DNA of 49,009 bases from an uncultured Oscillospiraceae bacterium (GTDB taxonomy: Bacteria; Bacillota; Clostridia; Oscillospirales; Acutalibacteraceae), in assembly GCA_948471095.1 (NCBI GenBank), contig CAOKRG010000013.1:1-49009 (forward strand). The letters run 5' to 3'. How positions within the stretch are numbered: the first letter of the stretch is position 1; every line of letters starts with the position of its first letter. A program made the translations under genes and the position numbers. Below are positions 14,366 to 45,060 of the stretch, piece after piece. The notes below the pieces were generated by a model. The model had not been told where the DNA came from, made no database searches, and saw only the letters and a list, made by a program, of their open reading frames with translations.

Positions 14366-14603
14366 ACCACCCAGTTAAAGGTGGACAACGTACGCGGTCA
14401 AGGGGCGGGGAAGATTGCCAGTGGCAATCGTTCTGACCCGGTCTACGCTGCCGCTCCGGTCGGTGCTGAACGTGTGCTGTACTTGGCGCAGCCAAGTACC
14501 CGGCACACAGCACCCGAGTCGGCAGACGAGACAGGCCCCTTGCAGGGTTCTTAGGGTGACTTGGCGAAGCCAATGTCATGAGCCCCTAAGCCGCCGGCGG
14601 CGG
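14366..14603. repeat. Mosaic hairpin repeat, copy 1
   Basis: This lies upstream of the radical SAM gene. It contains the shared framework pieces GGGTTCTTAGGG and GCCCCTAAGCCGCCGG. Hairpins occupy the slots: GATTGCC/GGCAATC with loop AGT (14413-14429), TACTTGGC/GCCAAGTA with loop GCA (14480-14498) nested inside a GTGCTG/CAGCAC pair, and TTGGC/GCCAA with loop GAA (14561-14573). No gene is supported here. Confidence 0.75.
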
Positions 14604-14954
14604 CCTTGCCCTTAAAAGGCGGCGCAGTGAAAATGGATAGTGCACAATACCCAAACATTCCTCCGAGTCCCCTAGCGCATTTATGCTGCGCCGCCGTCCT
14701 TTGTAACGCATTAGAGCGAAGCGAATAACAGTGGACTGCTTCCCCCCGGTTAGCTTTTGAGGGATGAGCCACCTGTTCCGCAAGGGGGGCGGCAGCAAGG
14801 GAGTTAGCCGCATCGAGGAGTCCGCTATTCATCGCTTCGCTCGAAGACGCTATAGGGGGCGGCGGCGCAGCAGGGGGGCGCTATTTTCCTTTTGTGTGAT
14901 GATTTGGCTCGCCGCTCTACCCTGTTTTACTGCGCCGCCTTTTTAGGGGCAAGG
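14604..14954. mobile_element. MITE-like 351-bp element with 30-base terminal inverted repeats
   Basis: The ends 14604-14633 and 14925-14954 are inverted copies of each other, with one gap and a couple of mismatches; both carry CCTTGCCC and GGCGGCGCAGT. A second inverted pair lies inside (GAGCGAAGCGA near 14712; TCGCTTCGCTC near 14831). No transposase or credible gene lies inside, so it is probably a nonautonomous foldback or MITE-type element inserted in the gap between dinB and the radical SAM gene. Confidence 0.65.
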
Positions 14955-15025
14955 TCGCGAGACTCTGTCTCGCGCTCTGCCACTTTTGAAAAAGTGGACA
15001 AAACTTTTACTGTTGCGCTGAGTTG
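14955..15025. repeat. Mosaic hairpin repeat, short B-type copy
   Basis: This short variant holds CGCGAGAC/GTCTCGCG, then CCACTTTTGAAAAAGTGG, then AAAACTTTTACTGTTGCGCT. The same order of G+C-rich hairpin, A+T-rich hairpin and AAACTTTT tail occurs at 44930-45005 and 25808-25895. It sits just downstream of dinB. Confidence 0.6.
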
Positions 15026-15034
15026 GCGGTTTCT

Positions 15035-16243
15035 TTACTTCCCATGCTTGGACGCTTCCCCGGCCTCTTCCCCCTTGACCAAAAAGGCCCGCCGCAGGCT
15101 CTCACCCCCATAGCGCTCCCGCACCCGGTCCACCGCATCTTCCAGGCGCTCCCGGCGCTTGCGGCCTTCCCCGTCCTCAAACAGGCTGATCTGCTCCTCG
15201 TCCTCCCGCACCAGACGGCCCGCCCGAATCCCCAGCAGGCGCACCGCCCAGCTTTTGCTTTCCTTTTTATAGAGCTCCCAGGCGGCCCGGTACAGGGCGT
15301 CCGAATCCCGGGCCGCGCAGGGCAGGCGCTTCTGGCGCTGAATCTCCTGGAAGTCGCTGGACCGGATGGTGATTTGCACCTCCTGGGCCCGCATTTTGTG
15401 GCGGCGCAGGCGGGCGGCTACCGTCTCGGCCAGGCCGTACAGGGTCTCCCGCACCTCCCGGTCCGTGGTCAGGTCCCGGGGCAGGGTGGTGCTGTTGCCA
15501 ATGGTCTTGGGGTCCTCCTGGGCGTCCACGTTCTGCACCGGGCTGTCGTCCAGGCCGTTGGCATAGACCCACAGGGTCTCCCCCATGCGGCCCAGCAGAG
15601 AGCGCATCACCCCGGGCTCCATATGGGCAATGTCCCCAATGGTGTGCAGGCCGTAGCGCCGGAGGGTCTTATTCGTGCTGGGGCCCACCAGCAGCAGGTC
15701 CGAGCAGGGCATTTTCCAGATGATCTCCTCCATCTCCCGGCGGCCGAACTCCGTGACCGCGTCGGGCTTTTTGTAGTCGCTGCCCAGCTTGGCGAAAATC
15801 TTATTAAAGGACACGCCGATGGAAACCGTCAGGCCCAGCTCCTCCTTCACCCGCCGGCGGATGGTCTCGGCAATGGTCCGCCCGTCGCCGAAGAGCAGGC
15901 CGCTGCCGTACACGTCCAGCCAGCACTCGTCCAGGCTGAAGGCCTCCACCCGGTCGGTGTAGTCCTGGTATATCTTCTTGGCCAGCTCTGAAAAATGGGC
16001 GTAGCGCTCGTGGTGGGGCGGCAGCAGCCGCAAGTCCGGGCACTTGCGCATGGCCTGCCAGATGGGCTCGGCGGTCTGCACTCCCTTGGCCTTGGCCAGC
16101 ATGTTTTTGGCCAAAATGATGCCGTGCCGGCTCTCCTTGTCCCCGGCCACGGCCATGGGCACGTCCCGGTATTCCGGGGCATACAGGGTCTCCACGGAGG
16201 CGTAGAAGTTGTTCATGTCCACATGCAGAATCCCATTTTCCAC
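15035..16243 (-). CDS. dinB: DNA polymerase IV (Y family)
   Basis: An error-prone translesion polymerase of 402 residues. The catalytic signatures are present: HVDMNNFYASVE at the start (first metal-binding Asp) and FSLDECWLDV (Asp-Glu pair), then a GPSTNKTLRRYGLHTIGDIA helix-hairpin-helix and a little-finger domain. The clamp-binding motif QISLF is at 351-355. The start is GTG at 16241-16243, with GGGAGG eight bases upstream; an upstream extension of the frame would lie inside the promoter. The promoter carries a LexA box, so SOS induction is likely. It reads toward the radical SAM unit but is separated from it by about 700 bases of repeats. Confidence 0.95.
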   Translation of the reverse strand: MENGILHVDMNNFYASVETLYAPEYRDVPMAVAGDKESRHGIILAKNMLAKAKGVQTAEPIWQAMRKCPDLRLLPPHHERYAHFSELAKKIYQDYTDRVEAFSLDECWLDVYGSGLLFGDGRTIAETIRRRVKEELGLTVSIGVSFNKIFAKLGSDYKKPDAVTEFGRREMEEIIWKMPCSDLLLVGPSTNKTLRRYGLHTIGDIAHMEPGVMRSLLGRMGETLWVYANGLDDSPVQNVDAQEDPKTIGNSTTLPRDLTTDREVRETLYGLAETVAARLRRHKMRAQEVQITIRSSDFQEIQRQKRLPCAARDSDALYRAAWELYKKESKSWAVRLLGIRAGRLVREDEEQISLFEDGEGRKRRERLEDAVDRVRERYGGESLRRAFLVKGEEAGEASKHGK

Positions 16244-16274
16244 CGGCGCCGCCTCCCTCTTGAATGCCGTCCTT

Positions 16275-16303
16275 ATTATAGAACACTTGTTCGCATTTGT
16301 CAA
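16275..16303 (-). promoter_or_regulatory. SigA-type promoter of dinB with LexA (SOS) box
   Basis: On the minus strand, TTGACA (16298-16303) and TATAAT (16275-16280) are 17 bases apart. The spacer holds CGAACAAGTGTTCT (16280-16293), which fits 13 of 14 positions of the Bacillus-type LexA consensus CGAACRNRYGTTYC. Repressor binding here would block polymerase directly, so dinB should be induced by DNA damage. Confidence 0.88.
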
Positions 16304-16340
16304 GAGGGAATTTCTGCCGGAAAGCGCTCCCGCCCACGAA

Positions 16341-16367
16341 GAAGGCCCCGGCGCAGCCGGGGCCTTC
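16341..16367. terminator. Terminator between DUF1062 gene and dinB promoter
   Basis: GAAGGCCCCGGC pairs with GCCGGGGCCTTC around a GCA loop, a perfect 12-base-pair stem. It lies 17 bases past the stop of the minus-strand DUF1062 gene. T tracts are short on both sides. Confidence 0.75.
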
Positions 16368-16383
16368 TTTATGGTTTTCCGGT

Positions 16384-16689
16384 TTATCCTTTCGCCAGTT
16401 CGTAGCCCTTCCCTTTGAAAAAGCCCCGGTCCCCGGCGTATTGCCGGACCAGCTCCTGGTCGTTGTCCAGAAATCCCTCGTACTGCCCCGCGGGGAGCTT
16501 TTCCGGGGAAATCCGCTCAAACAGGGGGACGTTCCAGGTGCGGCCGCACCGCTGGCAGCGGTAGATCAGCCAGACGTCCAGCCGCCTGCCGTTGGCGTTC
16601 ACGCGGAACTTTCCCGCGCATTCAAAAACCATTTTCTTTCCGCATCCGCCGCAGCGGCGGATGATCTTACATTCCTTCGCATAGCCCAT
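16384..16689 (-). CDS. DUF1062-family protein, possibly C-terminally shortened
   Basis: A 101-residue protein with two Cys-x2-Cys pairs that look like a small zinc ribbon (CGGCGKK, CQRCGRTW) and the DUF1062 hallmark of a Trp-rich strand (DVWLIYRC, TWNVPLFERI), then FLDNDQELVRQYAGD. Known DUF1062 proteins are, as far as remembered, nearer 180-200 residues, so the C-terminal half seems absent; the stop is followed at once by a terminator. Function is unknown. The ATG at 16687-16689 has no strong ribosome site. It is last in the minus-strand series downstream of rpoD. Confidence 0.75.
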   Translation of the reverse strand: MGYAKECKIIRRCGGCGKKMVFECAGKFRVNANGRRLDVWLIYRCQRCGRTWNVPLFERISPEKLPAGQYEGFLDNDQELVRQYAGDRGFFKGKGYELAKG

Positions 16690-16736
16690 GGCGTCATATC
16701 GAGAAAAACTTGGGCGGCTTCTCCGCCGGACGCGAC

Positions 16737-16794
16737 GGCTATTGCATTATGTTCTGATTTTTTCTCTTTCCTCGCTTGTGGATTTGCAATAGCC
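16737..16794. repeat. 10-base inverted repeat upstream of DUF1062
   Basis: GGCTATTGCA (16737-16746) and TGCAATAGCC (16785-16794) are perfect inverted copies 38 bases apart. They lie in the otherwise empty 160-base gap between the 66-residue gene and the DUF1062 gene. The role is unknown; it could be an operator or an RNA stem. Confidence 0.45.
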
Positions 16795-16848
16795 CTCGCT
16801 ATGCAAACCGCTGGGGTTGTCTTCCTTTGAAGGCGAACGCACTTCCTT

Positions 16849-17049
16849 TCATTTCAGCAAATAATATTTTTCGTCTACGCTGGCAATGGTCTTCTCCCGC
16901 AGCATCATGGCAAGCAGGCCCGGGTAGTTCCGGTCCCCCTTGGCTACGCCCGCCGCCTCCAGGTCCAGCGCCGTCTGGGGCGAAACCGCCCCAGCCCTTT
17001 TCAGTTTCTCCACGATCCGATTCCGCTTAATCAGCACCAATGGTACCAT
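16849..17049 (-). CDS. Conserved 66-residue hypothetical protein
   Basis: A small basic-acidic protein that begins MVPLVLIKRNRIVEKLKRAG and ends KTIASVDEKYYLLK. It looks like a single winged-helix-sized unit (helix, AVSPQTALDLEAAGV, helix, short strand pair), but no family name is claimed. The ATG at 17047-17049 is chosen because AAGGAG lies nine bases upstream and because an earlier start would overlap most of the Rrf2 tail. It overlaps the end of the Rrf2 gene by 23 bases, so the two are probably coupled in translation and may act together. Confidence 0.7.
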   Translation of the reverse strand: MVPLVLIKRNRIVEKLKRAGAVSPQTALDLEAAGVAKGDRNYPGLLAMMLREKTIASVDEKYYLLK

Positions 17050-17488
17050 CGCCGCCGTCTCCTTCCCTTTGGCATAGGTCCGCCGGTTTTTCGGGCGCTT
17101 CTCCGCAGATGGCGTCAAAGGTATAGGCGTCCAGCTCACGGCGCACCGTGGCGCTCACCTTTTCATATATGTTATGCAGGCGGCAGTGCTCCCGGCCGCA
17201 GCTGTACTCGTCCTTTTGGCAGCGGCTGAGCATATAGGGCCCCTCTACGCTCTCGATCACCTGCAGAAGGGTGATCTCCTCCGGCGGCTTCGCCAGGCTG
17301 TAGCCGCCCTTGGCCCCCTTGAAGGAGCACACCAGCTCCCGCTGCACCAGGCCCCGCAGAATCTTTAGGCAGAAGCGCAGGGGCACCTGCATTTTTTCCG
17401 AGATGGTCCTGGCGTCCCAGCGCCCCGGATGCTTGGTCAGATATTCCACAATCCGCACGGCGTAGTCCGCCTCTAATGTCATTACCAT
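17027..17488 (-). CDS. Rrf2-family transcriptional regulator
   Basis: A 153-residue winged-helix regulator. The N-terminus (MTLEADYAVRIVEYLTKHPG) and the GLVQRELVCSFKGAKGGYSL wing are typical of Rrf2/IscR. Three cysteines at 90, 97 and 102 (spacing Cys-x6-Cys-x4-Cys) sit where IscR and NsrR bind an iron-sulfur cluster, so it may sense iron-sulfur status, nitric oxide or redox. The spacing differs slightly from IscR. The ATG at 17486-17488 has GGAG seven bases upstream. It overlaps the 66-residue gene and follows the small membrane protein gene after 32 bases. No isc or suf genes are nearby, so the target is unknown. Confidence 0.9.
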   Translation of the reverse strand: MVMTLEADYAVRIVEYLTKHPGRWDARTISEKMQVPLRFCLKILRGLVQRELVCSFKGAKGGYSLAKPPEEITLLQVIESVEGPYMLSRCQKDEYSCGREHCRLHNIYEKVSATVRRELDAYTFDAICGEAPEKPADLCQREGDGGDGTIGAD

Positions 17489-17520
17489 GCTAAGTCTCCG
17501 TTTCCTCCCGGGGGTCCGGT

Positions 17521-17844
17521 CTATGACCCCCTATGGCCCGCTTCACCCAAGGGGGGAGATCCTCCCGTCCGCATGTTCCTGTTCTGATTCCGCTTTTCCT
17601 CCATGGCAATCTCATTCAGCACCTTGTCCTGATGCGCCTCAACGGCCAATAAGATCAGCAAGGCCGCAAGCACGGCCCCAGCCAAGAGCAGCAGGATGAC
17701 AGAAAGCCGCCGCCAGCCCGCCGCCCAAAACAGTACGCCGGCCAAAAAGAACGCTCCGACGATTTTCACCATCACAAGTCCCGGTTCAAGCATATTCAGC
17801 TTGTGTTTGTAGCGGCTCTCATAGCTTGCATGCCTGCGCCTCAT
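17521..17844 (-). CDS. Small two-helix membrane protein
   Basis: About 107 residues with two predicted transmembrane stretches (LVMVKIVGAFFLAGVLFWAA, then LSVILLLLAGAVLAALLILL), a basic N-terminus (MRRRHASYESRYKHK) and a polar C-terminal tail. The start at 17842-17844 lies 17 bases after the rpoD stop, so it is probably cotranscribed; the ribosome site is weak (a GGGGG run). No family is recognised and no function is proposed. Confidence 0.6.
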   Translation of the reverse strand: MRRRHASYESRYKHKLNMLEPGLVMVKIVGAFFLAGVLFWAAGWRRLSVILLLLAGAVLAALLILLAVEAHQDKVLNEIAMEEKRNQNRNMRTGGSPPLGEAGHRGS

Positions 17845-17861
17845 CCCCCGCCCGTCCCCCG

Positions 17862-18950
17862 TCAATCCAGGAAGTCCTTGAGCTTTTTGGAGCGGCTGGG
17901 GTGGCGCAGCTTGCGAAGGGCCTTGGCCTCAATCTGCCGGATGCGCTCCCGGGTCACGTTGAACTCCTTGCCCACCTCTTCCAGGGTCCGGCTCCGGCCG
18001 TCCTCCAGGCCGAAGCGCAGCCGCAGCACCTTTTCCTCCCGAGGGGTCAGGGAGTCCAGCACATTGCCCAGGGTCTCCTTTAAGAGGGTGTGGCTGGCCG
18101 CCTCCTGGGGGGCGGGGGCCTCGTGGTCCTCGATGAAGTCGCCCAGATGGCTGTCCTCCTCCTCGCCGATGGGGGTCTCCATGGAGACCGGCTCCTGGGC
18201 GACCCGCATAATCTCCCGCACCTTGTCGATGGGCATTTCCAGCTCCTCGGCGATCTCGTCGGCGCTGGGCTCCCGGCCGTTTACGTGCAGCAGCTGGCTG
18301 GAGGCCTTCTTCACCTTGTTGATGGTCTCCACCATGTGGACGGGAATGCGGATGGTCCTGGCCTGGTCCGCGATGGCCCGGGTGATGGCCTGGCGGATCC
18401 ACCAGGTGGCGTAAGTGGAGAACTTAAACCCCTTGGTGTAGTCGAACTTCTCCACCGCCTTGATCAGCCCCAAGTTGCCCTCCTGGATCAGGTCCAAAAA
18501 CTGCATGCCCCGGCCCAGGTAGCGCTTGGCGATGCTGACCACCAGGCGCAGGTTGGCCTCGGAAAGGCGCTTTTTCGCGGCCTCGTCCCCGTTGATGATG
18601 CGCACGGCCAAGTCCACCTCTTCCTCGGGGGTCAAAAGCGGCACCCGGCCGATCTCCTTTAGGTAGACCTTTACCGGGTCGTCGATGGCCACGCCCTCGC
18701 CGCCGGCTTCCAGCTCCGCCACCTCGCTGGTCTTCACCAGGTCCGCGTCGTCCAGCTGCATCTCGTCGAAATCCTCCACGATCTCCACGCCCTGGCTTTC
18801 CAGGGTGTCGTAGAATTTCTCGATCTGCTCCGGGTCAAAGTCGAGCTCCCCCAGAGCGTCTAAAATTTCCTTTGTGCTCAGCTGGCCCTTGGCCTTGCCC
18901 ACCTCTACTAAATCTTTGATCACGCTTTTTTTGTCCGGCTGTGCGCTCAT
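17862..18950 (-). CDS. rpoD: Primary RNA polymerase sigma factor (SigA)
   Basis: The housekeeping sigma factor, 362 residues. Region 1.1 is short; region 1.2 begins [22 protein letters not shown]; region 2 has [43 protein letters not shown] for -10 melting, and region 4.2 has [20 protein letters not shown] for -35 binding. The ATG at 18948-18950 is chosen because GGAAGG lies nine bases upstream; an ATG three codons earlier directly abuts that site. It follows dnaG in the common Firmicutes order dgt-dnaG-rpoD, but a 374-base gap with a mosaic repeat now separates them. The strong TTGACA/TATAAT promoters in this window fit recognition by this factor. Confidence 0.97.
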
Positions 18951-19042
18951 AGCTTCCATCCTTCCTTTTCATTTCCCAGAAAATGAATTTCAATACAACC
19001 TTTTCCCGGCCCTGCGGGGAGTGGGAGGCGTTTTTAATGGGA

Positions 19043-19315
19043 GTGTTACGGAGTGGAGTCTCGCCTCCCGGCTCGGTCGGTTCGCAGCTTGTCTGCCACT
19101 GGCAGACGCTCACCCTCCGGCGGCCAAGTTCATCTTTGATGAACTTGCGGGGCTTATGACATTGGCTTCGCCAAGTCACCCTAAGAACCCACGAGTTATC
19201 CTTTGGATAACTCGTCAACCTCTTGAAAAGGGCGACAATCGCCAGTGGCGATTGTCGCCGACCGAGACGGCAGTCGAGAATGACGAAACTTTTGCTGGCT
19301 CACTGACTGAGCTGT
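19043..19315. repeat. Mosaic hairpin repeat, copy 2
   Basis: This fills the dnaG-rpoD gap. Framework in order: TTACGGAGTGGAGTCTCGCC, CTCCGGCGG, GGGGCTTATGAC, CCCTAAGAACCC, CTTGAAAAGG, ACGAAACTTTTGC. Hairpins in the slots: GTCTGCC/GGCAGAC loop ACT (19091-19107), AAGTTCATC/GATGAACTT loop TTT (19126-19146), TTGGC/GCCAA loop TTC (19162-19174), ACGAGTTATCC/GGATAACTCGT loop TTT (19191-19215), and CGACAATCGCC/GGCGATTGTCG loop AGT (19233-19257). All these stems are perfect. Confidence 0.85.
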
Positions 19316-19324
19316 TTCCCTTTA

Positions 19325-21118
19325 TCAGCGCGTTTGGTCACTCCCAGCCCTGCGCCGCTTCTGCTCCTGGCTCAGGCGGGCGATCTCCTGCTGGACCTCC
19401 TGGTCCGAGGCCGTCTTCATCCACTCCGCGCCGGCCCGGCCTCCCTCCCGAAGGATGAGCCGCACGTATTCCTTGGCATCCGCCCCGCTGACCGGCGGGT
19501 CCCGGTGCTGGGCCAGCATCCGGCTCAGCTCCCCCATCTCCGCGGGGCTCAGTTCCCCGCCCAAATCCGCCAGGGTGGCCGCGCCATGTATAGTTTTGCC
19601 CAATAAGGCGGCGTATACTCCACGGTTAAAGGCGGTGACGAATTTTTCAGGCGGCAGCAGCTTTTGCAGGGCCTCCGCCTTGTCCTGGTGCAAAAACAGG
19701 TAGGCGATCAGCCCCTCCTCGGCCAGCGCGGCCCGCATGTGACCCTTCTTCTCCGGGTTGGCGGCGGATTCCGCCCCCGCTATCTTCATCTCTTCCCGCC
19801 GGAGCTTTTTCTGCTCCTTTTGGACCTCCCGGCGGGAAAGCCCCCCCGCCGCCGCCAAAATGCGGTCCTTGCCCACGCCGGTCTCGCCGGAGAGCTTGCC
19901 CGCGTATATGTCCTGCTCCATAGGGTCCCGCAGCTTGCTGAGCACCTGCCCCACCGCATCGCCCAGGTAACGGGTCCGGCCCTCTTCCGTTTCCAGGTCG
20001 TACTGGTCCCGCAGCTTTGAGAGCCGGTATTCCACGTCCGTGCCGCCGCCTTCCAGCAGCTGCTTGAAGCGCAGGGGCCCGTCCTTTCCGTAGTTGCGCA
20101 TAAACTCGTCCGGGTCCTTGCCCCCGGGCACCGTGACCACCTTGACCCGCAGGCCCGCGTTCTTTAAAATGGGGATGGCCCGCTGGGTGGCCTTCTGCCC
20201 CGCCTCGTCCGAGTCGTAGCAGATCACCGCCTCGTCGGCATAGCGCTTCATAATGCGGGCCTGCTCCTCGGTCAGGGACGTGCCCAGGGAGGCGATGGCG
20301 TTGGAAAAGCCCGCCCGGTGCAGGGCGATCACGTCCATGTAGCCCTCGGCCAGAATGAGCTGCCGGGAGTCGGAATTCTTGGCCAGGTTCATGGCGAACA
20401 GCCCGCTGCTCTTGTGGTACACCGGCGTGTCCGAGGTGTTGATGTACTTGGGCTTCTCGTCCGTCAGCACCCGGCCCCCGAAGGCCACCACATTGCCCCG
20501 CAGGTCGAAGATGGGGAACATCACCCGGCCCCGGTAGCGGTCGTAGGGGTTGCCCCGCTGGGAGAGCCGGGCCACGTCCGCCTGGGTCATCTCCTCCACG
20601 GTATAGCCCTTGGCCCGCAAATGGTTTGTAAGGCCAAAGCCGCTTTCCGGGGCATAGCCCAGGCCGAACTTTTTAATGGTGCCAGGGTCCAGCCCCCGGC
20701 CCCGGAAATAGTCCAGCCCGGCCCGGCCCTCCGGGGAGGCCAGGGTCTGGTAAAAGAACCGCCCGGCCTCCCGGTTCACCTCCAAAATCCGCATCCGCAG
20801 CTTGGAGAGGCTGTCGTCCCAGCTCTGCTCCGGCAGGGCCATGCCCGCCCGCTGGGCCAGCCATTTCACAGCCTCCACAAAGTCCAGCCGCTCCGCGTCC
20901 ATCACGAAGTTGATCACCCCGCCGCCCTTGCCGCACCCGAAGCAGTAGTAGGAGTTATTCCCCGGGTAGATGTTGAACGAGGGGGTCTTCTCGCTGTGGA
21001 AGGGGCACAGGCCCGTCAGGTTTTTGCCCCGCCGCTTTAAGTTTACATACCGCCCCGCGATCTCCTCGATCCGGCTGCGGTCTTCCAATTCCCGCAGGAA
21101 TTCCGGGGGAAATGCCAT
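19325..21118 (-). CDS. dnaG: DNA primase
   Basis: Makes RNA primers for chromosome replication; 597 residues, the normal length. The N-terminal CHC2 zinc site is complete (Cys38, His41, Cys59, Cys62 in CPFH and CFGC). The catalytic core has the RNA polymerase domain (GRVMFPIFDLRGNVVAFGGR) and the toprim motifs (LAEGYMDVIAL, VICYDSDEAGQKA). The C-terminal part is a helicase-binding domain. The ATG at 21116-21118 has AAGGAGG six bases upstream. It lies between dgt and rpoD in the usual macromolecular-synthesis order; mosaic repeats occupy both intergenic spaces, so transcripts of this operon would contain their hairpins. Confidence 0.97.
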   Translation of the reverse strand: MAFPPEFLRELEDRSRIEEIAGRYVNLKRRGKNLTGLCPFHSEKTPSFNIYPGNNSYYCFGCGKGGGVINFVMDAERLDFVEAVKWLAQRAGMALPEQSWDDSLSKLRMRILEVNREAGRFFYQTLASPEGRAGLDYFRGRGLDPGTIKKFGLGYAPESGFGLTNHLRAKGYTVEEMTQADVARLSQRGNPYDRYRGRVMFPIFDLRGNVVAFGGRVLTDEKPKYINTSDTPVYHKSSGLFAMNLAKNSDSRQLILAEGYMDVIALHRAGFSNAIASLGTSLTEEQARIMKRYADEAVICYDSDEAGQKATQRAIPILKNAGLRVKVVTVPGGKDPDEFMRNYGKDGPLRFKQLLEGGGTDVEYRLSKLRDQYDLETEEGRTRYLGDAVGQVLSKLRDPMEQDIYAGKLSGETGVGKDRILAAAGGLSRREVQKEQKKLRREEMKIAGAESAANPEKKGHMRAALAEEGLIAYLFLHQDKAEALQKLLPPEKFVTAFNRGVYAALLGKTIHGAATLADLGGELSPAEMGELSRMLAQHRDPPVSGADAKEYVRLILREGGRAGAEWMKTASDQEVQQEIARLSQEQKRRRAGSDQTR

Positions 21119-21179
21119 GGCGCGCCTCCTTCCGAATGAATATTACTTTTGCCCCAAACGATTAGGAAAAGCACAGTCG

Positions 21180-21345
21180 AAACTAGGTCCCGAAAGGGCC
21201 TACGGCCCAGGAGGTACTATTAAGGCCTCCGGCGGCTTAGGGGCTTTGAGTCTCGCCTACCGGCTCGGTCGGCGACGGGAAATCGCCACCGGCGATTGTC
21301 GCCCCCTAAGAGCCCCACCAGGGCCTAACGCCCCTGGACCGCGCC
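21180..21345. repeat. Mosaic hairpin repeat, copy 3
   Basis: This sits between dgt and dnaG. CCTCCGGCGG is followed by CTTAGGGGC (21236-21244), a long insert, and GCCCCCTAAG (21301-21310). The insert holds GTCTCGCCTACCGGCTCGGT and a hairpin built on AATCGCC/GGCGATT with loop ACC. After it comes CCAGGG/CCCTGG around CCTAACG. Compared with copy 8, this is a loop insertion within the CTTAGGGGC palindrome. Confidence 0.75.
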
Positions 21346-21380
21346 TTATTTCCTACAGTTTAGAGCATGGAGTAATAACC

Positions 21381-23377: not shown

Positions 23378-23384
23378 CTCTTGT

Positions 23385-23687: not shown

Positions 23688-23691
23688 AGGC

Positions 23692-24022: not shown

Positions 24023-24054
24023 GATAAAGTTTTTTGGGAGGACTTTGCAAACGC

Positions 24055-24415
24055 GTGTTTTAACTGAGAAGCAAGCTTACTAAGCGAAACCGTAAAAGTT
24101 TCGTCCTTCTCGACTGCCGTCCCGGTCGAGTTGAGGAAGTCAACTCGTGCGCTGAACGGTCGCTCTACTTGGCTTTGCCAAGTAACCGGCGACCAGCGCC
24201 CTTTTCAAGATGTGGACGAGTTATCCAAGGGATAACTCGTGGGTTCTTAGGGGGTGAGCGTCTGCCGTACGCTGTGAACCGAGCGGAAAGCCTGCGCCTC
24301 ACACCCATAATAAACGTGTAAAAGTTTTTGAAGGTTCTGCGACTTCATTTTCAATGAAGTCGGAAACTTCTTTTCAAAAAGTTCCCTAAGCCGCCGGAGG
24401 CCATCCCACCGTCAT
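24055..24415. repeat. Mosaic hairpin repeat, copy 4 (most elaborate)
   Basis: This occupies the rpmE-aminotransferase gap. Hairpins: CGAGTTGA/TCAACTCG (24127-24147); TACTTGGC/GCCAAGTA loop TTT (24166-24184), itself enclosed by GGTCGC/GCGACC; ACGAGTTATCC/GGATAACTCGT loop AAG (24216-24240); GACTTCATT/AATGAAGTC loop TTC (24341-24361). Framework pieces GGGTTCTTAGGGGGTGAGCG, CTAAGCCGCCGGAGG and AAGCGAAACCGTAAAAGTTT are present. The stretch 24416-24464 shows nothing further. Confidence 0.8.
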
Positions 24416-24464
24416 TAAATACCTATTCTGGCCACTCCCTTTTAGGAGCGCTCCGCGGCCCCGC

Positions 24465-26785: not shown

Positions 26786-26870
26786 CTCCGGGCCAAAGGA
26801 CGGCCCTGCGGCAAGACCGTGGGACTCTGTCCCACACCCTGGAAGGGGCCTAACGCCCCTTCACCGCGTC
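26786..26870. repeat. Mosaic hairpin repeat, short copy
   Basis: This holds GTGGGAC/GTCCCAC with loop TCT, ACCCTGGA, then GAAGGGGC/GCCCCTTC around CCTAAC, and TCACCGCGTC with a T6 tract. The order equals 44930-44960, so it is a shortened form. The final hairpin may also stop plus-strand transcription. Confidence 0.6.
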
Positions 26871-28548: not shown

Positions 28549-28838
28549 CTTAGAAGCTGTATTCACAACCGGAGAACGATTACGCTGACAGATAAGAGTA
28601 GGGAAAATACGCAGTCCAGGGGCGTTAGGCCCCTGGCAGGGTTCTTAGGGGGTGAGCGTCTGCCAGTGGCAGACATGCTGCGAACCGACCGAGCCGACAG
28701 GCGAGACCCAGAGCCCCTAAGCCGCCGGAGGCCAAACATTGCAAAATGGGGCCGTTAGGCCCCCTTCGGGACCTAGTCCCGACCCAGACGTTCCCCCCTT
28801 ATCTACTGGCGCAGCAATTTATGAATACAGCTTCTTAG
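28549..28838. repeat. Mosaic hairpin repeat, copy 6, bounded by inverted repeats
   Basis: AGAAGCTGTATTCA (28552-28565) and its exact inverse (28822-28835) bound the unit. Inside are GGGGC/GCCCC around GTTAG, GGGTTCTTAGGGGGTGAGCG, GTCTGCC/GGCAGAC loop AGT (28658-28674), GACCGAGCCGACAGGCGAGA, GCCCCTAAGCCGCCGGAGG, GGGGCC/GGCCCC and GGGAC/GTCCC. A similar end (AAGAACCTGTATTCATA) occurs at 33487-33503 beside copy 8. Confidence 0.75.
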
Positions 28839-29960: not shown

Positions 29961-30004
29961 GGCTTTTTTTACTTGAGAGTGTCCACACGCGCGTTTTATA
30001 GAAA

Positions 30005-30235
30005 TCAGAAAGTCCACTAAGCGCAACCATAAAAGTTTCGTCAACCTTTACAAAGGTTGCGGGGTTCTTAGGGGACTTCGCGCAGCGAATGTCGTAAGTC
30101 CCGCAAGTTCATCTTTGATGAACTTGGCCGCCGGAGGGGGAAGATTGCCAGTGGCAATCGTTCTGACCACGAATTGACTTTGTCAACTCGACCGAGCCGG
30201 CAGGCGAGACTCCACTCCGTAATACTTTTAAAAAC
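30005..30235. repeat. Mosaic hairpin repeat, copy 7
   Basis: This lies between the P-loop gene and the yceD promoter. It holds CAACCTTT/AAAGGTTG, GGGTTCTTAGGGG, a TTCGC/GCGAA hairpin with loop GCA, AAGTTCATC/GATGAACTT loop TTT (about 30106-30126), GATTGCC/GGCAATC loop AGT, TTGAC/GTCAA loop TTT, and GAGACTCCACTCCGTAA. In the CTTAGGGG slot the tip is TTCGC/GCGAA, where copies 1 and 2 have TTGGC/GCCAA in the same flanks. Confidence 0.8.
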
Positions 30236-30260
30236 TACTTTTGGACAATCTCTTTTACTT

Positions 30261-33483: not shown

Positions 33484-33690
33484 CATAAGAACCTGTATTC
33501 ATACATTGTTCGGCCAATAAACGACCGGGATGCTTTGGTCGGGACAACGTCCCGAAGAGGGGCCTACGGCCCTGTAAAAGAATGTATTGGCCTCCGGCGG
33601 CTTAGGGGCTTTGCCCCTAAGAACCCTACCAGGGGCCGCGACTTCGCGCAGCGAAGGTCGACGCACCTGGACCGCGCACATTGCTCACCG
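33484..33690. repeat. Mosaic hairpin repeat, copy 8 (minimal form)
   Basis: This copy shows the uninterrupted core: CCTCCGGCGG, then CTTAGGGGC/GCCCCTAAG with loop TTT (33601-33621), then AACCCTACCAGGGG. The next palindrome, CCAGGGG/CCTGG, has a hairpin CGACTTCGC/GCGAAGGTCG loop GCA (33639-33660) where other copies have CCTAAC. An AAGAACCTGTATTCATA end lies at 33487-33503. Confidence 0.8.
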
Positions 33691-33734
33691 TTAGCTGAGT
33701 GATAATTCTTCACAGCTTATATAGGAAACACACT

Positions 33735-37459: not shown

Positions 37460-37472
37460 AGCGCGCCCCCGC

Positions 37473-37556: not shown

Positions 37557-37565
37557 TCCTCCTCT

Positions 37566-38634: not shown

Positions 38635-38646
38635 AGCCTCCTCCTT

Positions 38647-39018
38647 TCAGGCCCGGCCAAAGTAAAAGCCCTCCTGGGCCAAAAAGCGGCCGCAGGCCCT
38701 GCGCTTTTCCGCGCGGAGGGAGGCCGCGTGGCGGGCCCGGTCTCCCAGCTCCACCTTCAGCTCCGGCGAGGCCACCGCCTCCGGCCCGGCGGACTGGTCC
38801 AGCAGCGCCAGCTGGTAAAAGGCCTCCGCCGCTGCCAGGCTCTCCGCCTTTGCGGCGGCGGACGCGGGGGCGTCCGGCCTGGCCCGCTCCAGCACCCAGT
38901 CCGCGCACTCCTGGCACAGGGCCCTGCACAGGGCGTCCCGCTGGGGCTCCCCTCCGTCCAGGGCCTCGCCGCTGTAGAGCTGAAATTTCTTCATCACATT
39001 TTCCTGGCTGATCTCCAC
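38647..39018 (-). CDS. Phage head-tail connector-type protein
   Basis: A 123-residue mostly helical protein (EPQRDALCRALCQECADWVL, AAAKAESLAAAEAFYQLALL, ELKVELGDRARHAASLRAEK), the size and helical pattern of head-completion adaptor proteins that follow the capsid gene. It starts with GTG at 39016-39018, six bases after AAGGAG. No specific family is recognised. Confidence 0.6.
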   Translation of the reverse strand: MEISQENVMKKFQLYSGEALDGGEPQRDALCRALCQECADWVLERARPDAPASAAAKAESLAAAEAFYQLALLDQSAGPEAVASPELKVELGDRARHAASLRAEKRRACGRFLAQEGFYFGRA

Positions 39019-39086
39019 AAAAAACTCCTTCCCGCCGGTCCGTCCGGCTGTCCTGGCGTTCCCTGCGCCGGTCCGCGGGCCCCGGC

Positions 39087-40151: not shown

Positions 40152-40173
40152 AGCTCTATACTCCTTTTTTGTT

Positions 40174-41118
40174 TTATATGATAAACTGGCCGTTTTCCGG
40201 TTCTCCCTCCTGCCGCCTGGGAGCCAGCTGGGGGGCCAGGGGCAGGGCCTTCTGGGCCATCTGGCGGTAGGTCTTCTCCATCTCCCGCAGTTCTTCCAGC
40301 GCCAGGCCCTTTACGGCGGATTCCATCACCGCCCGGGGCATGGCCGGCTGGACGATGGCGCTGTAGCGCAGCGCCCCGGCCTCCAGCTCCCGCCGGTAGG
40401 CCTGGCCCCACAGGGCCTGCTGGCGCAGCTCCCGAAAGCGCTTTCCGATCTCCCGGGTCTGGCTCTTAGTCAACAGCACCTCCTGGGGCGGCCCTTCCAG
40501 CAGCTTGTCCAAACCGCCTGCCCCAAAGCGCTTCACCACCCCCGCGCCCCGCTGGGCCGGCACCGCCACAAAGGAGCACTCGTAGGCGTCCGTGGGTTCC
40601 AGCAGCACCCAGTGGGCCGGTTTGCCGCCGTAGAGCTTCCCCTTTTCGTGCTGGCAGCTCTCCCTGCCGCATGCGCTGCAAACCTTCCGCTTCACGCTGC
40701 AGCTGACGCTCACCTCCTTGAGAATGCCGCTCTCAATGAGCTCGATCACCTCCTGGCTGCCGCTGGTCCGGGGCAGGTAAGCCCGGGCGGTCAGCCGCAC
40801 CAGCTCCTCGCCCGCCTGGGTGGTCTTCTCCGGCACGCGCTCCAGGCCGGTGCGGTAGATACGCGCCGTCTGGTTGGCGCTTTTGCGCTCGTGGTCGAAA
40901 ATGCAGGTCTTGCCCAAAAACAGCTCCTTAAGCGCCTCCAGGCTCTCCACCGCGAACCTCTCGTTGTCCCGGTCCACCTCGTTGTCACAGAGCACCAGGG
41001 AGAAGGCGTAAACCTCCTCCGGCTGGTAGGTCCGGCGGGTGTACCGGTTGATCTCCTCCATCTCTTCCGGCCCCAGCCCCTCCGGGGCCTTCCGGACCAG
41101 TCCCTCTTTTGTGTTCAT
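40174..41118 (-). CDS. Phage prohead protease/scaffold-like protein
   Basis: 314 residues, placed between portal and capsid as prohead proteases are. The N-terminal 200 residues (AFSLVLCDNEVDRDNERFAV, KTCIFDHERKSANQTARIYR, ILKEVSVSCSVKRK, AYECSFVAVPAQ) fit a protease domain with the His of FDH and the Ser of SVSCS as candidate catalytic residues; a Cys-rich insert (CSACGRESCQHEKG) may bind zinc. The C-terminal 100 residues are helical and may scaffold the capsid. The ATG at 41116-41118 has AAAGGAG upstream. Protease function is inferred. Confidence 0.72.
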   Translation of the reverse strand: MNTKEGLVRKAPEGLGPEEMEEINRYTRRTYQPEEVYAFSLVLCDNEVDRDNERFAVESLEALKELFLGKTCIFDHERKSANQTARIYRTGLERVPEKTTQAGEELVRLTARAYLPRTSGSQEVIELIESGILKEVSVSCSVKRKVCSACGRESCQHEKGKLYGGKPAHWVLLEPTDAYECSFVAVPAQRGAGVVKRFGAGGLDKLLEGPPQEVLLTKSQTREIGKRFRELRQQALWGQAYRRELEAGALRYSAIVQPAMPRAVMESAVKGLALEELREMEKTYRQMAQKALPLAPQLAPRRQEGEPENGQFII

Positions 41119-41196
41119 TCAGCTTTCTCCTTTCCATTCGCCTCGTGCCATTCCGGCCAGCCGGACCCGTGGGGGCCCAGCCAGCCCGGCCGCCGG

Positions 41197-41233
41197 CCCC
41201 GGCTTCGCCGGGGCGCGGGGGCTCCGCCCCCGC
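41197..41233. repeat. Two G+C-rich hairpins in tandem in the portal-protease gap
   Basis: CCCCGGC/GCCGGGG loop TTC (41197-41213) and GCGGGGGC/GCCCCCGC loop TCC (41215-41233). Both are perfect and have 3-base loops, like the modules of the intergenic mosaics. The 147-base gap between the genes holds nothing else. Confidence 0.6.
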
Positions 41234-41265
41234 CTTCCGCCTGGGGCGGAAGCGGCGGCCTCCCC

Positions 41266-42396
41266 TCAGCCTGCGGGCCGCGCCCCGCTCTCCTCCATCT
41301 CCCGCTCCAGCTTTTTGGCCCGGGCGGTCAGGTAGCGGGCGTTGGCGTGGTCCACCTCGTCCTGCATGGTGATCTCGTCCCACACCACCCGGCACTCCGT
41401 GGAATACCCCGCCAGCGCCAGCCAGGTCCCGCAGATCTTCCGGGCCACCGGAGCCAGCACCCGCCGGTAGGCCTCCAGCTCGCTGGTCAGCACGTCCGCC
41501 TGCTGGCTGGACATCCGCTCAGTGGAGGACCAGGACAGCCCCAGCAGAAAGGGCGGCAGGCCCAGCTTGGCCACAATCTGCTCCAGCATCTGGCGCACCG
41601 GGGCCTCGCTCTCCATCACCTGGCCGTCCGCGCCAATGGCCTGAATGGCCACGTCCCCCACAGCGATAAAGTCCCGGGGCTCCCGGCTGGTCATGGCCGC
41701 CTTCCACTCCTCCGCCATCTGGCGGGCCCGCTCCTCCGCGCCACCCAGGGCCCCGTCCGCGCGGCAGGTCACCGCGAAGCGCACATTGCCCATGCGCTCC
41801 CAGTTGACCCCCAAGGTGCGGTAGATTTTCAGCAATACGTCGCTCACCCCCGGCAGCCCCCGCAGCAGCGAGACCCCCCAGGGGGACCCGGCCTCCGGGT
41901 TCAGCGCCGAAACCAGCAGCAGCTCCGGATAGGGGCAGGCCCGCCGCCCCTCCCGGTCCAGCACCGAAACCTTCACCCCCAGGGCCCCGTCCTCTTCCAG
42001 GCAGAGGTTCCGCAGCCCCGCGTTGTACAGGGCCCCCACCTGCCCGCCGGAGAGCACCATCTCCCCCACGGCGGTGCCGTAGGTGATCAGCTCCTCCAAG
42101 TAGATTCCCAGAAATTCATGGATTCCGGCCCCCGCCGCGTTCACCTGCACGCTGGCCAAAAACTCCTCCAGCCCCTTCTGCGCCGCCGGGTCCGGGCACT
42201 CCACCCGGAATTCCCCGATGAGCCGCCGCAGCTTGTAGATGGCCGCGTCAATCACCGGCACCGCCTGGCGCAGGGCCCGGTACAGCTCCCGTTCGCTGGC
42301 GCCCATGGGCAGGGCGGTCCGGGGCCCCAGTGGGCGGGTCTGCACGCTCACCGCCGCTTGGGCCCCTTTCCCCGGCTTTTTCCGAAACTCGAACAA
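41266..42396 (-). CDS. Phage portal protein
   Basis: About 376 residues. The portal pattern is clear: VIDAAIYKLRRLIGEFRVEC, IYLEELITYGTAVGEMVLSG, SALNPEAGSPWGVSLLRGLP, RTLGVNWERMGNVRFAVTCR, LGLPPFLLGLSWSSTERMSS and the C-terminal QDEVDHANARYLTARAKKLE helix. It would form the dodecameric DNA gate of a capsid. The frame continues to a TTG at 42418-42420; a TTG at 42394-42396 is preferred because AGGAGAGGA lies just upstream. No terminase gene precedes it; a terminator-like hairpin and a promoterless gap lie upstream, then cellular genes on the other strand. Confidence 0.88.
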   Translation of the reverse strand: MFEFRKKPGKGAQAAVSVQTRPLGPRTALPMGASERELYRALRQAVPVIDAAIYKLRRLIGEFRVECPDPAAQKGLEEFLASVQVNAAGAGIHEFLGIYLEELITYGTAVGEMVLSGGQVGALYNAGLRNLCLEEDGALGVKVSVLDREGRRACPYPELLLVSALNPEAGSPWGVSLLRGLPGVSDVLLKIYRTLGVNWERMGNVRFAVTCRADGALGGAEERARQMAEEWKAAMTSREPRDFIAVGDVAIQAIGADGQVMESEAPVRQMLEQIVAKLGLPPFLLGLSWSSTERMSSQQADVLTSELEAYRRVLAPVARKICGTWLALAGYSTECRVVWDEITMQDEVDHANARYLTARAKKLEREMEESGARPAG

Positions 42397-42530
42397 GTCC
42401 TCTCCTCTCCTTCCCAACAAAAATGTGAAGACGCTCCGGCCCTCCGTCCGGACCTGATTTTCCCTCCCTTCTCCTTTTCTCTCAAGCTTCCCTCCCGCGA
42501 AAACCTCCTTTCATACACCCCTCAAAAAAC

Positions 42531-42561
42531 AAAAAAATTTGCCCTCTCGAAGGCAAATTTT
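42531..42561 (-). terminator. Hairpin with T run upstream of the portal gene
   Basis: AAAATTTGCC (42534-42543) pairs with GGCAAATTTT (42552-42561) and is followed on the minus strand by a T7 run. It faces into the portal operon, so it would stop minus-strand transcripts from farther upstream. Between it and the portal start are two ribosome-binding-like sequences without a frame. No further feature is seen in 42397-42665. Confidence 0.75.
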
Positions 42562-42665
42562 GGAGGAAAAAGGTAAATTTCTTTCCATTTTTTTCGAAAC
42601 CCCTGCCAAAGGCCTGCAAATCCCTTTCAACACATTACGAATCCCTTACTTTTCCCTCCCCCCTC

Positions 42666-42694
42666 TTGCGTCCCCGCTTGGTTCATGGTAAGAT
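42666..42694 (+). promoter_or_regulatory. Probable SigA-type promoter of the TM2 genes
   Basis: TTGCGT (42666-42671) and TAAGAT (42689-42694) are 17 bases apart, about 60 bases before the first TM2 gene. Confidence 0.5.
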
Positions 42695-42758
42695 AAGGGC
42701 AAGATCAAGAAAATCCCGCCTTACACACAACGCGTGAAGAAAGGAACGTGGTTCTCAC

Positions 42759-43094
42759 ATGGCAGATTACAATAACAGCGGCTACCAGCCCCAGGGCCAG
42801 CAGCCCATGTACAATCCCCCCCAATACCAGCCCCAGGCCGGCATCGATCCTCCCCCGGGCTACGTGCAGCGCAGCCGTCTGGCAGCGGGGATCCTGGCGA
42901 TCCTTCTGGGCACCTACGGCGTCCACAGCTTCTACCTGGGCAACACCTCCCGGGGCCTGATGCAGCTGCTCATCTCCCTGCTCACCTGCGGCTTCGGCGC
43001 CATCTTCATCATGATTTGGGGCATTCTGGACGGCGTCAAGCTTCTGGACGGCCGCATCAACACCGACGCCAACGGAGTCTTCTTGAAAGACTGA
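42759..43094 (+). CDS. TM2-domain membrane protein
   Basis: A 111-residue protein with a Gln/Pro/Tyr-rich N-terminus (NSGYQPQGQQPMYNPPQYQP) and a TM2 domain: RSRLAAGILAILLGTYGVHS, FYLGNTSRGLMQLLISLLTC and GFGAIFIMIWGILDGVKLL. The two membrane helices joined by a short YLGN-type turn define the family; its function in bacteria is unknown. The ATG is preceded by AAAGGAA at a long distance. It forms a tandem pair with the next gene, 48 bases downstream. Confidence 0.9.
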   Translation: MADYNNSGYQPQGQQPMYNPPQYQPQAGIDPPPGYVQRSRLAAGILAILLGTYGVHSFYLGNTSRGLMQLLISLLTCGFGAIFIMIWGILDGVKLLDGRINTDANGVFLKD

Positions 43095-43142
43095 CCGGCG
43101 GACCCCGCCTCCCACACTTTTTTGAAAGGAAGGATTCCCTCT

Positions 43143-43814
43143 ATGAGCGATCTTGAAAATAAGGACCTGAATTCCCAGCCCGCGGAAACCCCCGCGCCGG
43201 AGCAATCTGCTCCAGAGCATCCTGCTCCCGAGCAACCGGCCGCCCCCGTGCCGGAGGGCAAGCCCATGCCCCAGCTGACGCTGGAGCCGGATCCGCCCGC
43301 CCCCTCCATCCAGTTCCCGGACCCGCCCCGGGCCCCGGAGCCTCCCGCGCCCGAGCCGGAACCCGCTCCCCAGGGCCAGTACAGCTACAGCGGCAGCCAG
43401 GTCCGCCAGGACCCGCCCTACCAGCAGCCGCCCCAGCCGGAGCAAAATTACCAGCAGCCCTACGCCCAGTCCTACCAGACCAACTACCAGCCCCCCAATT
43501 ACACCGCCCAAAGCTACCAGCCCGTCCAGCCCCAGCAGCCCAAATACACCACCCCGCCCGTGGGCTACCAGCAGAAGAGCCGTCTGGCGGCGGGCCTTCT
43601 GGCCATCATACTGGGCGTCTTCGGGGTGCACAACTTCTACATGGGCTTCAACACCCGGGCCACCATTCAGCTGGTGCTCAGTCTGGCGGGCGGGCTTCTC
43701 ACCTGCGGCCTGGGCACCGTGGCCGCGGCCGTATGGGGCTTTATCGAGGGCGTGATGATCCTCTCCTCCAACGGCCCCCGCTTCGACGGCAACGGCGTCA
43801 TCATGCGGGACTAA
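43143..43814 (+). CDS. TM2-domain membrane protein with long Pro/Gln-rich N-terminus
   Basis: 223 residues. The first 150 are low complexity: an acidic Pro/Glu part (PAPEQSAPEHPAPEQPAAPV) and a Gln/Tyr/Pro part (NYQQPYAQSYQTNYQPPNYT). The TM2 domain follows: SRLAAGLLAIILGVFGVHNF, YMGFNTRATIQLVLSLAGGL, GTVAAAVWGFIEGVMIL. It is a duplicate of the upstream gene with an enlarged cytosolic or surface linker. The ATG at 43143-43145 has AAAGGAAGG nine bases upstream. The function is unknown; such tails often bind WW/SH3-like or other partners in other organisms, which is only analogy here. Confidence 0.88.
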   Translation: MSDLENKDLNSQPAETPAPEQSAPEHPAPEQPAAPVPEGKPMPQLTLEPDPPAPSIQFPDPPRAPEPPAPEPEPAPQGQYSYSGSQVRQDPPYQQPPQPEQNYQQPYAQSYQTNYQPPNYTAQSYQPVQPQQPKYTTPPVGYQQKSRLAAGLLAIILGVFGVHNFYMGFNTRATIQLVLSLAGGLLTCGLGTVAAAVWGFIEGVMILSSNGPRFDGNGVIMRD

Positions 43815-43859
43815 CAGAGACCGCGCCGAAGCCAGGAAGCGTCCGAAGGAAAGAGTGGA

Positions 43860-44125
43860 ACCCCAAAAGTTCCAGAGAGCGAACCGTAAAAGTCTTGTCC
43901 ACTTTTTCAAGAAGTGGACGAGTTATCCAAAGGATAACTCGTGGGTTCTTAGGGGGTGAGCGTCTGCCAGTGGCAGACATGCTGCGAACCGACCGAGCCG
44001 GCAGGCGAGACCCAGAGCCCCGCAAGTTCATCTTTGATGAACTTGACCGCCGGAGGGGGAAGATTGCCAGTGGCAATCGTTCTGACCCGACCGAGCCGGT
44101 AGGCGAGACCCACTCCGTAAAACTT
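43860..44125. repeat. Mosaic hairpin repeat, copy 9
   Basis: This follows the TM2 pair. Seen are CCACTT/AAGTGG, ACGAGTTATCC/GGATAACTCGT loop AAA (near 43917-43941), GGGTTCTTAGGGGGTGAGCG, GTCTGCC/GGCAGAC loop AGT, GACCGAGCCGGCAGGCGAGA (twice, about 43991 and 44088), AAGTTCATC/GATGAACTT loop TTT (near 44023-44043) and GATTGCC/GGCAATC loop AGT. The module series equals parts of copies 2, 6 and 7 joined together. Confidence 0.82.
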
Positions 44126-44162
44126 CAAACCGCTCCCTTTGGACACTCCCACAAAAAGACCC

Positions 44163-44197
44163 AAGCCCCGGCCTTTTGGAATAAGCCGGGGCTTTTT
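44163..44197 (+). terminator. Rho-independent terminator
   Basis: AAGCCCCGGC (44163-44172) pairs with GCCGGGGCTT (44185-44194), then T residues. It ends plus-strand transcripts from the TM2 genes and the repeat, 40 bases before the DUF3267 gene. Confidence 0.82.
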
Positions 44198-44238
44198 GCT
44201 GTTTTAAATCCTTTAGTTTTTTTAGAAAGGAGTTCCGC

Positions 44239-44814
44239 ATGAAGCTCCACTACAGAGGAAAATATAATCTGGACCCCGCCTCCATCCCCCACGGGGAGCA
44301 CCGCCCCGGGGCCGTGCCCTTCCGGGAATTCCAAAGCGCCAAAGCCCTGGCCATTGCCGCAAACCTGGCGTCTTTTGGAGTTTTGGCCCTTCTGCTGGTC
44401 CCCGCCCTCTTCCGCGCGCCCTTTCTCCAGCACCGCTTACAGATGATCCTGGGCTTCACCACCCCTCTGGCGGCGCTGGTCCCCCACGAGCTGCTCCACG
44501 CCCTATGCTTTAAAGGGGACGTGTATTTTTACACCAACCTGTCCCAGGGCATGCTCTTCGTGGCCGGTCCGGAGGATATGTCCAAAGCCCGCTTCGTGTT
44601 CATGTCCCTGCTGCCCAACCTTGTTTTTGGGTTTCTGCCCTATCTTTTGGGAATGCTTTTTGGCGTGCCCTTCCTGCTGGCCTTCGGGGCCCTGTCCGCC
44701 AGCATGGGCGCGGCGGACTATTTCAACGTCTTCAACGCCCTGACCCAGATGCCCCGGGGCGCGCGGACCTACCTCTACCAGTTCAACTCCTATTGGTACA
44801 TGCCAGAGCGGTGA
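44239..44814 (+). CDS. DUF3267-family membrane protein with HExxH-like motif
   Basis: 191 residues. Helices: KALAIAANLASFGVLALLLV, VPHELLHALCF with a metalloprotease-like HELLH, and FVFMSLLPNLVFGFLPYLLG, then a YFNVFNALTQMPRGARTYLY end. The DUF3267 family is thought to contain membrane-embedded zinc metalloproteases; activity is unproven. The ATG at 44239-44241 has AAAGGAG nine bases upstream. It stands alone between a terminator and a mosaic repeat. Confidence 0.85.
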   Translation: MKLHYRGKYNLDPASIPHGEHRPGAVPFREFQSAKALAIAANLASFGVLALLLVPALFRAPFLQHRLQMILGFTTPLAALVPHELLHALCFKGDVYFYTNLSQGMLFVAGPEDMSKARFVFMSLLPNLVFGFLPYLLGMLFGVPFLLAFGALSASMGAADYFNVFNALTQMPRGARTYLYQFNSYWYMPER

Positions 44815-44894
44815 GGAGGCTGTTCTCCTGAATGAGCGGAATAGCAGAGAGCCAGATGAATTGCGCGGTCAAGGGGCGTTTGTTATAGAAGTAT

Positions 44895-45060
44895 TAGAAG
44901 GCCTCCGGGGCCAAAGGGCGGGCCCACTCCGGCAAGACCGTGGGGCTCCGCCCCACACCCTGCAACCTTTGAAAAGGTTGACGAAACTTTTGCTGTTGCG
45001 CTCAGGGAGCTTTCTCCGTATGAAACACGCGTTTGGCCACTCCCCCGGCCGAACCGGCAG
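44895..45060. repeat. Mosaic hairpin repeat, B-type copy
   Basis: This holds GGCCTCCGGGGCCAAAGGGC, GTGGGGC/GCCCCAC loop TCC, ACCCTGC, AACCTTT/AAAGGTT, then GACGAAACTTTTGCTGTTGC. It lacks the CTTAGGGG block. The order is the same as at 26786-26870 and 14955-15025. Confidence 0.65.

Follow-up and report, generated by a model that had tools for sequence, protein, structure and literature searches.

A structured palindromic module nested in composite intergenic repeats and in genes of Clostridia and their phages

Repetitive extragenic palindromic sequences (REPs) and bacterial interspersed mosaic elements (BIMEs) are mosaics of palindromic units. They are presented in these terms in one source (PMC2817692), and another describes insertion sequences that target REPs (IS1397, IS621), with palindromes as landing sites (PMC1525189). 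In the alga Volvox, mitochondria and plastids contain palindromes of 50 nt on average in intergenic regions and introns, often nested and usually with loops of 3-5 nt (PMC2670323). In Rickettsia, palindromic repeats of ~150 bp, the Rickettsia palindromic elements (RPEs), lie in frame inside unrelated genes (PMC10969869). Here we describe a family of intergenic mosaic repeats, and a small structured module within them that we call M, in a 49,009-nucleotide stretch from an uncultured Oscillospiraceae bacterium (GenBank assembly GCA_948471095.1, contig CAOKRG010000013.1; hereafter the window).

The mosaics are composites, in which outer frames resembling miniature inverted-repeat transposable elements (MITEs) carry palindromes that hold M. 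M has discrete edges, is present or absent at corresponding places, nests, and undergoes two-sided stem changes. A preliminary description of the window had seen one framework in fixed order, with interchangeable hairpins in its slots. The copies and modules that it listed are present, including the copy at 33540, which is the core without insert (CTTAGGGGCTTTGCCCCTAAGAACCC). The hairpin GTCTGCC/GGCAGAC does change slot: at 19.1 kb it precedes CTCCGGCGG, and at 28.7 and 44.0 kb it occupies the CTTAGGGG slot, as described there under a slightly different copy numbering. The single framework gives way to at least two MITE-like frames, each with its own terminal inverted repeats (TIRs), which were found by reading outward past the framework: (i) type A, GGGAGTGTCCAAA, and (ii) type B, GAACCTGTATTCATAA. 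Some of the shorter B-type forms share the supposed framework only in part; that at 26786, for example, is without the ACGAAACTTTTACGG part. The outer TIRs, the target duplications and the unity of GTCTCGCC...CACC as one discrete module had been overlooked. With a probability of roughly 0.6, we read M as a non-autonomous DNA element that is mobile in trans and nested in both MITE-like frames and genes.

M consists of a head, GTCTC-(NNC TGCC GNN)-TCGGTC, followed by a two-tier hairpin with the apex CC-ACN-GG, and measures about 50-75 nt, often ~54 nt. When heads are collected as GTCTC-NNN-TGCC-NNN-TCGGTC, the two triplets are mostly complementary and the two-tier hairpin comes next in most. Among 212 non-redundant heads, 172 have a CC-ANN-GG apex and at least two of the five outer pairs, and 119 of these head-plus-apex versions are distinct. 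Their 595 outer pairs include 579 Watson-Crick, 7 G-T, 4 A-C and 5 other pairs, compared with only 46% Watson-Crick pairs when the arms are re-dealt. Perfect 7-bp stems occur in 26 distinct versions, a few of which may be neighbouring hairpins. In an alignment of 22 of the 23 sequences of 54 nt (L015 was left out), 96.3% of 352 pair cells are paired, a score biased toward a structure that was derived from these same sequences; the corresponding value is 74.9% in shuffles and at most 47.7% when the partner is slid by 1-3 columns. Of the same cells, 73 contain two-sided changes, 1 a one-sided change, and 13 are unpaired. In the stems of M both sides change together in surroundings that are themselves unchanged, and the scarcity of one-sided and G-U steps suggests that stems are exchanged or copied as DNA, in preference to slow selection acting on an RNA. 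Among 136 distinct M, 98 have no stop in any of the three frames of the M strand, and 26 have none in those of the complement. A covariance model finds 14 matches in the window, where the following copies are distinguished; the double-headed form also occupies the first slot of L004 and looks like two modules sharing one gtacttggc hairpin.

21250-21303, plus strand: M with the aatcgcc stem, inside the CTTAGGGG hairpin; top score in the window (74.2 bits)
43955-44011, minus strand: M with the gtctgcc stem, in the CTTAGGGG slot
44056-44109, minus strand: M with the gattgcc stem, in the slot before CCTCCGGCGG
28651-28707, minus strand: M with the gtctgcc stem, in the CTTAGGGG slot of a type B frame
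19058-19114, plus strand: M with the gtctgcc stem, in the slot before CCTCCGGCGG
19231-19280, minus strand: M, reversed, in the third slot
30138-30210, minus strand: M with an extra gttgac hairpin (30210-30171 plus a weak match at 30168-30138, E 0.0041)
14441-14532, no strand: double-headed M, two heads facing each other around a gtacttggc hairpin
24107-24146, plus strand: degraded M head with nested hairpins (E 4.5e-5)

The contents of three framework slots were tabulated at 45 places of the source genome. M is found in all three, in both orientations and inside M itself; versions with differing stems lie before CCTCCGGCGG, in the CTTAGGGGC...GCCCCTAAG loop and, reversed, in the third slot. 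That small palindromes sit inside the loops of larger ones, as first proposed, is borne out by M, which lies within other GC-rich hairpins, in their loops, and also within a second M, in the TG/CC loop of its head (L318, L319 and L198). Paralogues in the source genome differ by single hairpins. L011 and L019 are alike over ~240 bp except that one has GCTTCCC-ACT-GGGAAGC and the other GGTCCCC-ATT-GGGGACC; one more change, in the head loop of M, lies just outside this tract, and the outer ends diverge more. In their aligned parts L004 and L005 reach 92.4% identity, and a 72-bp palindromic double-headed module is present in L004 only. The hairpin TGAGTTGGC-GAA-GCCAACTCA occurs in L021 and is missing from L023, and the window element at 43835-44150 differs from L023 by an extra ACGAGTTATCC-TTT-GGATAACTCGT hairpin and a different stem. 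Gain and loss look the same in these comparisons. Slot exchange is therefore supported between paralogues, and the proposal that hairpins are exchanged independently of the framework holds to that extent; the framework itself is not one unit, and M extends far beyond it. Nine pairs of closer species yielded no clear hairpin swap at intergenic sites.

The gene dnaG (window 19328-21118) is flanked by an HD-domain gene and a sigma-70 gene, with repeats in both spacers, and its protein is closest to that of Acutalibacter sp. 1XD8-33 (80% identity), on which basis we place the source genome in that group. The dnaG spacers of 13 relatives contain other hairpin repeats in L043, L046 and L056, with none recognised in the remaining ten. 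The hairpins in these three are GC-rich; their linkers (CGGGT, TAGGGT, ACCCTACC) resemble one another, and their stems differ.

M is also found in frame inside genes: topoisomerase III (L188), a relaxase (L204 and L369), TnpV (L189), a phage C5-methyltransferase-like gene and an open reading frame (ORF) in L202 that matches no Pfam family. It is a palindrome in frame inside unrelated genes, as RPEs are. L213, L215 and L243, where M is near the N-terminus, were not counted here, since M may precede the true start. The coding strand is the complement of M at each of the six in-gene sites, though open frames are commoner on the M strand. In topoisomerase III, the Pfam Toprim match extends across M, which accounts for 23 residues where the alignment with solved structures has 2, and the N-terminal piece alone scores weakly (3.4 bits). 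M is absent from the relaxase in L370, L371, L372/L376, L374 and L375, the last of which is a paralogue within the genome of the filled L369. The empty junction reads MWG-D-RFQ and the filled one MWG-(23 residues)-P-RFQ. The two filled relaxase copies may come from one insertion; their M differ in one apical pair (C-G vs T-A), and there is a mismatch in the second hairpin of L369. In the methyltransferase-like gene, one site is filled in L217, L214 and L270 and empty in L222, L229, L230 and L231 (the proteins of L229 and L230 are 87% and 89% identical to that of L217), and another is filled in L214 and L222 and empty in L217. This phage gene thus has two separate sites for M, with differing combinations of occupancy among L214, L217, L222 and L270. 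Presence and absence at homologous sites are demonstrated for M inside genes only.

Identical copies of M also occur in different surroundings. L404 and L405, both from genome G692, have a 55-bp stretch in common at 100% identity and no other match in the comparison; M is identical at 53 of 53 positions, and the 60-base flanks agree at only 19 and 14. The same 53 bp are present in L409 from genome G675. Landing sites were compared in 167 records with a defined 3' end and distinct flanks, the 3' end being miscalled for some outside the genus. The base 3' of M is C in 50 of 52 records from the source genome, 71 of 72 congener records and 29 of 43 others. As regards a possible intrinsic terminator (a GC-rich hairpin plus T-run), the bases that follow M are mostly C. 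Inverted arms of at least 6 nt surround M in 21% of the 167 records, compared with 9% and 8% in controls. If the last two C of M are assigned to the host, such arms are found in 56 of 167 (19.4 on average and at most 31 among 50 re-dealings), and arms of at least 7 nt in 26 of 167 (control 5.3, maximum 11). In other families (L409, L356, L358, L418, L419, L194 and L206), M interrupts another palindrome (CACCTCATC...CTT / CTCAAGG...AAGG), which we take to be a common repeat of gut Clostridia.

Target duplications, whose search at cassette edges had been proposed at the outset, are seen at the outer frames and not at M. Nine of 16 type A elements are bordered by 8-9-bp duplications with at most one mismatch, against 256 of 30,037 re-dealt flank pairs; the 16 come from 18 paired stretches, from which three mis-paired ones were dropped and to which the window element at 29975-30252 was added. 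The type B duplication is TTA; as read from the flanks, it borders window 28553-28834 on either side and occurs in L028 too. The frames display two features of MITEs, TIRs at both ends and a target site duplication. In congener G021 (L154, 1345-1924), type B TIRs enclose a degraded IS5-like DDE_Tnp_1 gene, with TAA on either side. The source genome contains no match to IS256-type (PF00872), IS5-type (PF01609) or IS1595-type (PF12762) transposases, and PF12762 has none in 29 genomes. No paired type A TIRs were found at 43 transposase loci (L123-L165), a set that covers part of the PF01609 matches. When folded as single-stranded DNA and compared with shuffles, L013, the type B copy at 28551-28836 and L009 give z values of -10.77, -5.59 and -2.65, respectively. 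The frames in the window are as follows.

29975-30252, minus strand: complete type A frame (MITE-like) with TIRs, M-type stretches and a caagttcatc hairpin; 8-bp duplication TTTTACTT on both sides
43835-44150, minus strand: type A frame with TIRs and two M (44109-44056 and 44011-43955); no recognisable target duplication
28553-28834, no strand: type B frame with TIR GAAGCTGTATTCA, TTA at 28550-28552 and 28835-28837, and one M inside the CTTAGGGG hairpin
33487-33720, plus strand: type B frame, left TIR at 33487, right end undefined; CTTAGGGGCTTTGCCCCTAAG core without insert at 33601
19030-19345, plus strand: type A frame with its right TIR at 19345 and an approximate left end; contains M at 19058-19114 and reversed M at 19280-19231
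24028-24439, minus strand: type A-like frame with a TIR at 24439 and an approximate other end; contains nested hairpins and, at 24107, degraded M

In the source genome (2.5 Mb in 83 contigs, of which the window is contig C13), the 30.0-kb copy has 79 blastn matches (E up to 1), and the 43.9-kb copy has matches in 30 of 60 genomes searched, including its own, 26 of the 30 being from the same genus. The exact head pattern of M is present in 17 of 394 genomes of the order and 12 of 168 genera, with zero matches for the backward control. It occurs 71 times in the source genome, 149 times in G021 and 52 times in G001; such counts are lower bounds, and the pattern missed the M-bearing genome G181. 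The covariance model gives 152 matches in the source genome (E up to 0.01; some partial; 150 of 2938 candidates scored) and, under a strict filter, is matched in at least 26 of 391 genomes of the class and at least 20 of 223 genera, with at most 14 candidates scored per genome. With the third pair left free, the pattern matches 15 viral stretches, in which the triplets are complementary in seven and nearly so in L212, the other seven being chance-like; eight of the 15 look genuine. L186 and L214 are the same DNA in two collections, as are L202 and L216. M is found in three phage records, one of which carries no annotation; in the other two, a small coding sequence is annotated over M, which we think is spurious. 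Annotated plasmids contain no M at E up to 0.1. Searches of an open-licence library, which covers few subscription papers, turned up no title on M and no paper on palindromes in Acutalibacter or Faecalibacterium.

How M might move can be sketched. Some enzyme would act on it in trans as folded DNA, recognising a folded single strand or cruciform through GTCTC, TGCC, TCGGTC and CC-ACN-GG. M would be joined beside C-runs, with a preference for hairpin loops, and arm pairing would be re-established either with one arm as the template for the other or by swapping in another hairpin. A one-sided base preference without duplication would fit a single-strand enzyme; the apparent replacement of host bases in genes does not. 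Several observations weigh against this reading. M ends in GTCTC and CC with no TIR, and its empty and filled gene pairs are without target duplication; neither of these two features of MITEs is found in M. In those pairs 1-3 host bases are seemingly replaced, not the tidy outcome of a precise transposase. A host palindrome surrounds M in at most one third of the flank pairs, least often outside the genus (14%). The flanks of identical copies are in some cases related, as in L404 and L409, whose left host sequences resemble each other (81% over 123 bp including M). M is recognised in only 3 of 80 viral methyltransferase loci, namely L228 (the L217 contig), L270 and L243 (another gene). No mobilising enzyme was found, and Y1_Tnp, the obvious candidate, does not track M across 17 M-bearing genomes. 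Stem exchange could also be explained by gene conversion or template switching.

The last of these points can be taken further: the mosaic might have arisen only from gene conversion and template switching among existing repeats, with no small element transposing. Stem swaps in identical surroundings (L011/L019) and strict Watson-Crick pairing, as expected of copied arms or patches, would fit this account. However, L404 and L405 have M in common and nothing else, and no repeats are visible around the single M differences in the relaxase and phage genes; we consider it unlikely as a full explanation. It seems equally improbable that M is a functional structured RNA (a regulator, a terminator-like element or a ribozyme), its pairing under selection and its spread incidental. 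Such a role would suit the conservation of unpaired GTCTC, TGCC and TCGGTC while the stems covary, and the coding use of the complement at each of the six in-gene sites, in spite of the more frequent open frames on the M strand. However, selection on RNA pairing normally leaves G-U intermediates, and these are few here, G-T pairs numbering 7 and A-C pairs 4 of the 595, with a single one-sided change in 352 cells. Moreover, M stands in both orientations relative to the frames and to neighbouring ORFs (from rough ORF calls), and Rfam returned only tRNA in the window at the gathering score, and nothing at M in four loci (L189, L190, L203, L205) at E up to 1.

Very doubtful, in our view, is a REP-type unit moved by a REP-associated tyrosine transposase (RAYT) or IS200-like Y1 transposase. 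Small hairpin size, high copy number, lack of target duplication and a C favoured on one side only would agree with it, as would the one Y1 gene in the source genome. Y1_Tnp, whose matches pool RAYTs with other Y1 enzymes, is found in 153 of 394 genomes overall and in 9 of the 17 that bear M; it is unmatched in the other 8, including G051 with its 10 M heads. The Y1 transposase was accordingly rejected as the mover of M, for lack of consistent co-occurrence. The only Y1 match in the source genome, L042 (G000:C4:84587-84868), lies near a contig end that cuts the locus, and the pattern finds no M head there.

A non-autonomous element mobile in trans remains our preferred reading of M. More tentatively, M could represent a class of minimal mobile DNA, in which a hairpin of ~54 nt stands by itself, is served by an enzyme of its own and prefers C-runs in hairpin loops. 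It would spread through Clostridia and their phages, nest recursively and be tolerated in conserved genes in one orientation, possibly through removal or skipping at the RNA or translation level. If this smallest reading were true, mobility would require only ~54 nt of folded DNA. With M, recursive insertion of palindromes can be counted cleanly in bacteria, and a structured module with presence/absence pairs in genes makes both the mobilising enzyme and the fate of in-gene copies testable.

Among known systems, bacterial MITEs resemble the outer frames in their TIRs and target duplications, and an IS5-like remnant with type B TIRs is present in the congener; the difference is that two frames with different TIRs have the same inner palindromes and M modules. 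REP/BIME repeats are likewise mosaics of palindromic units, and for REP-targeting insertion sequences palindromes likewise serve as landing sites; here, in contrast, the inserted thing is M itself (~54 nt), and Y1 genes do not track it. The Volvox repeats are also ~50-nt palindromes, often inserted within one another, whereas M, a bacterial module, enters genes too and has a head that is conserved and unpaired. In its behaviour, M appears similar to the RPEs: both are palindromes in frame inside unrelated genes, whereas M is mostly 50-75 nt long, belongs to Clostridia and phages, and combines conserved unpaired motifs with covarying stems and hairpin-loop sites.

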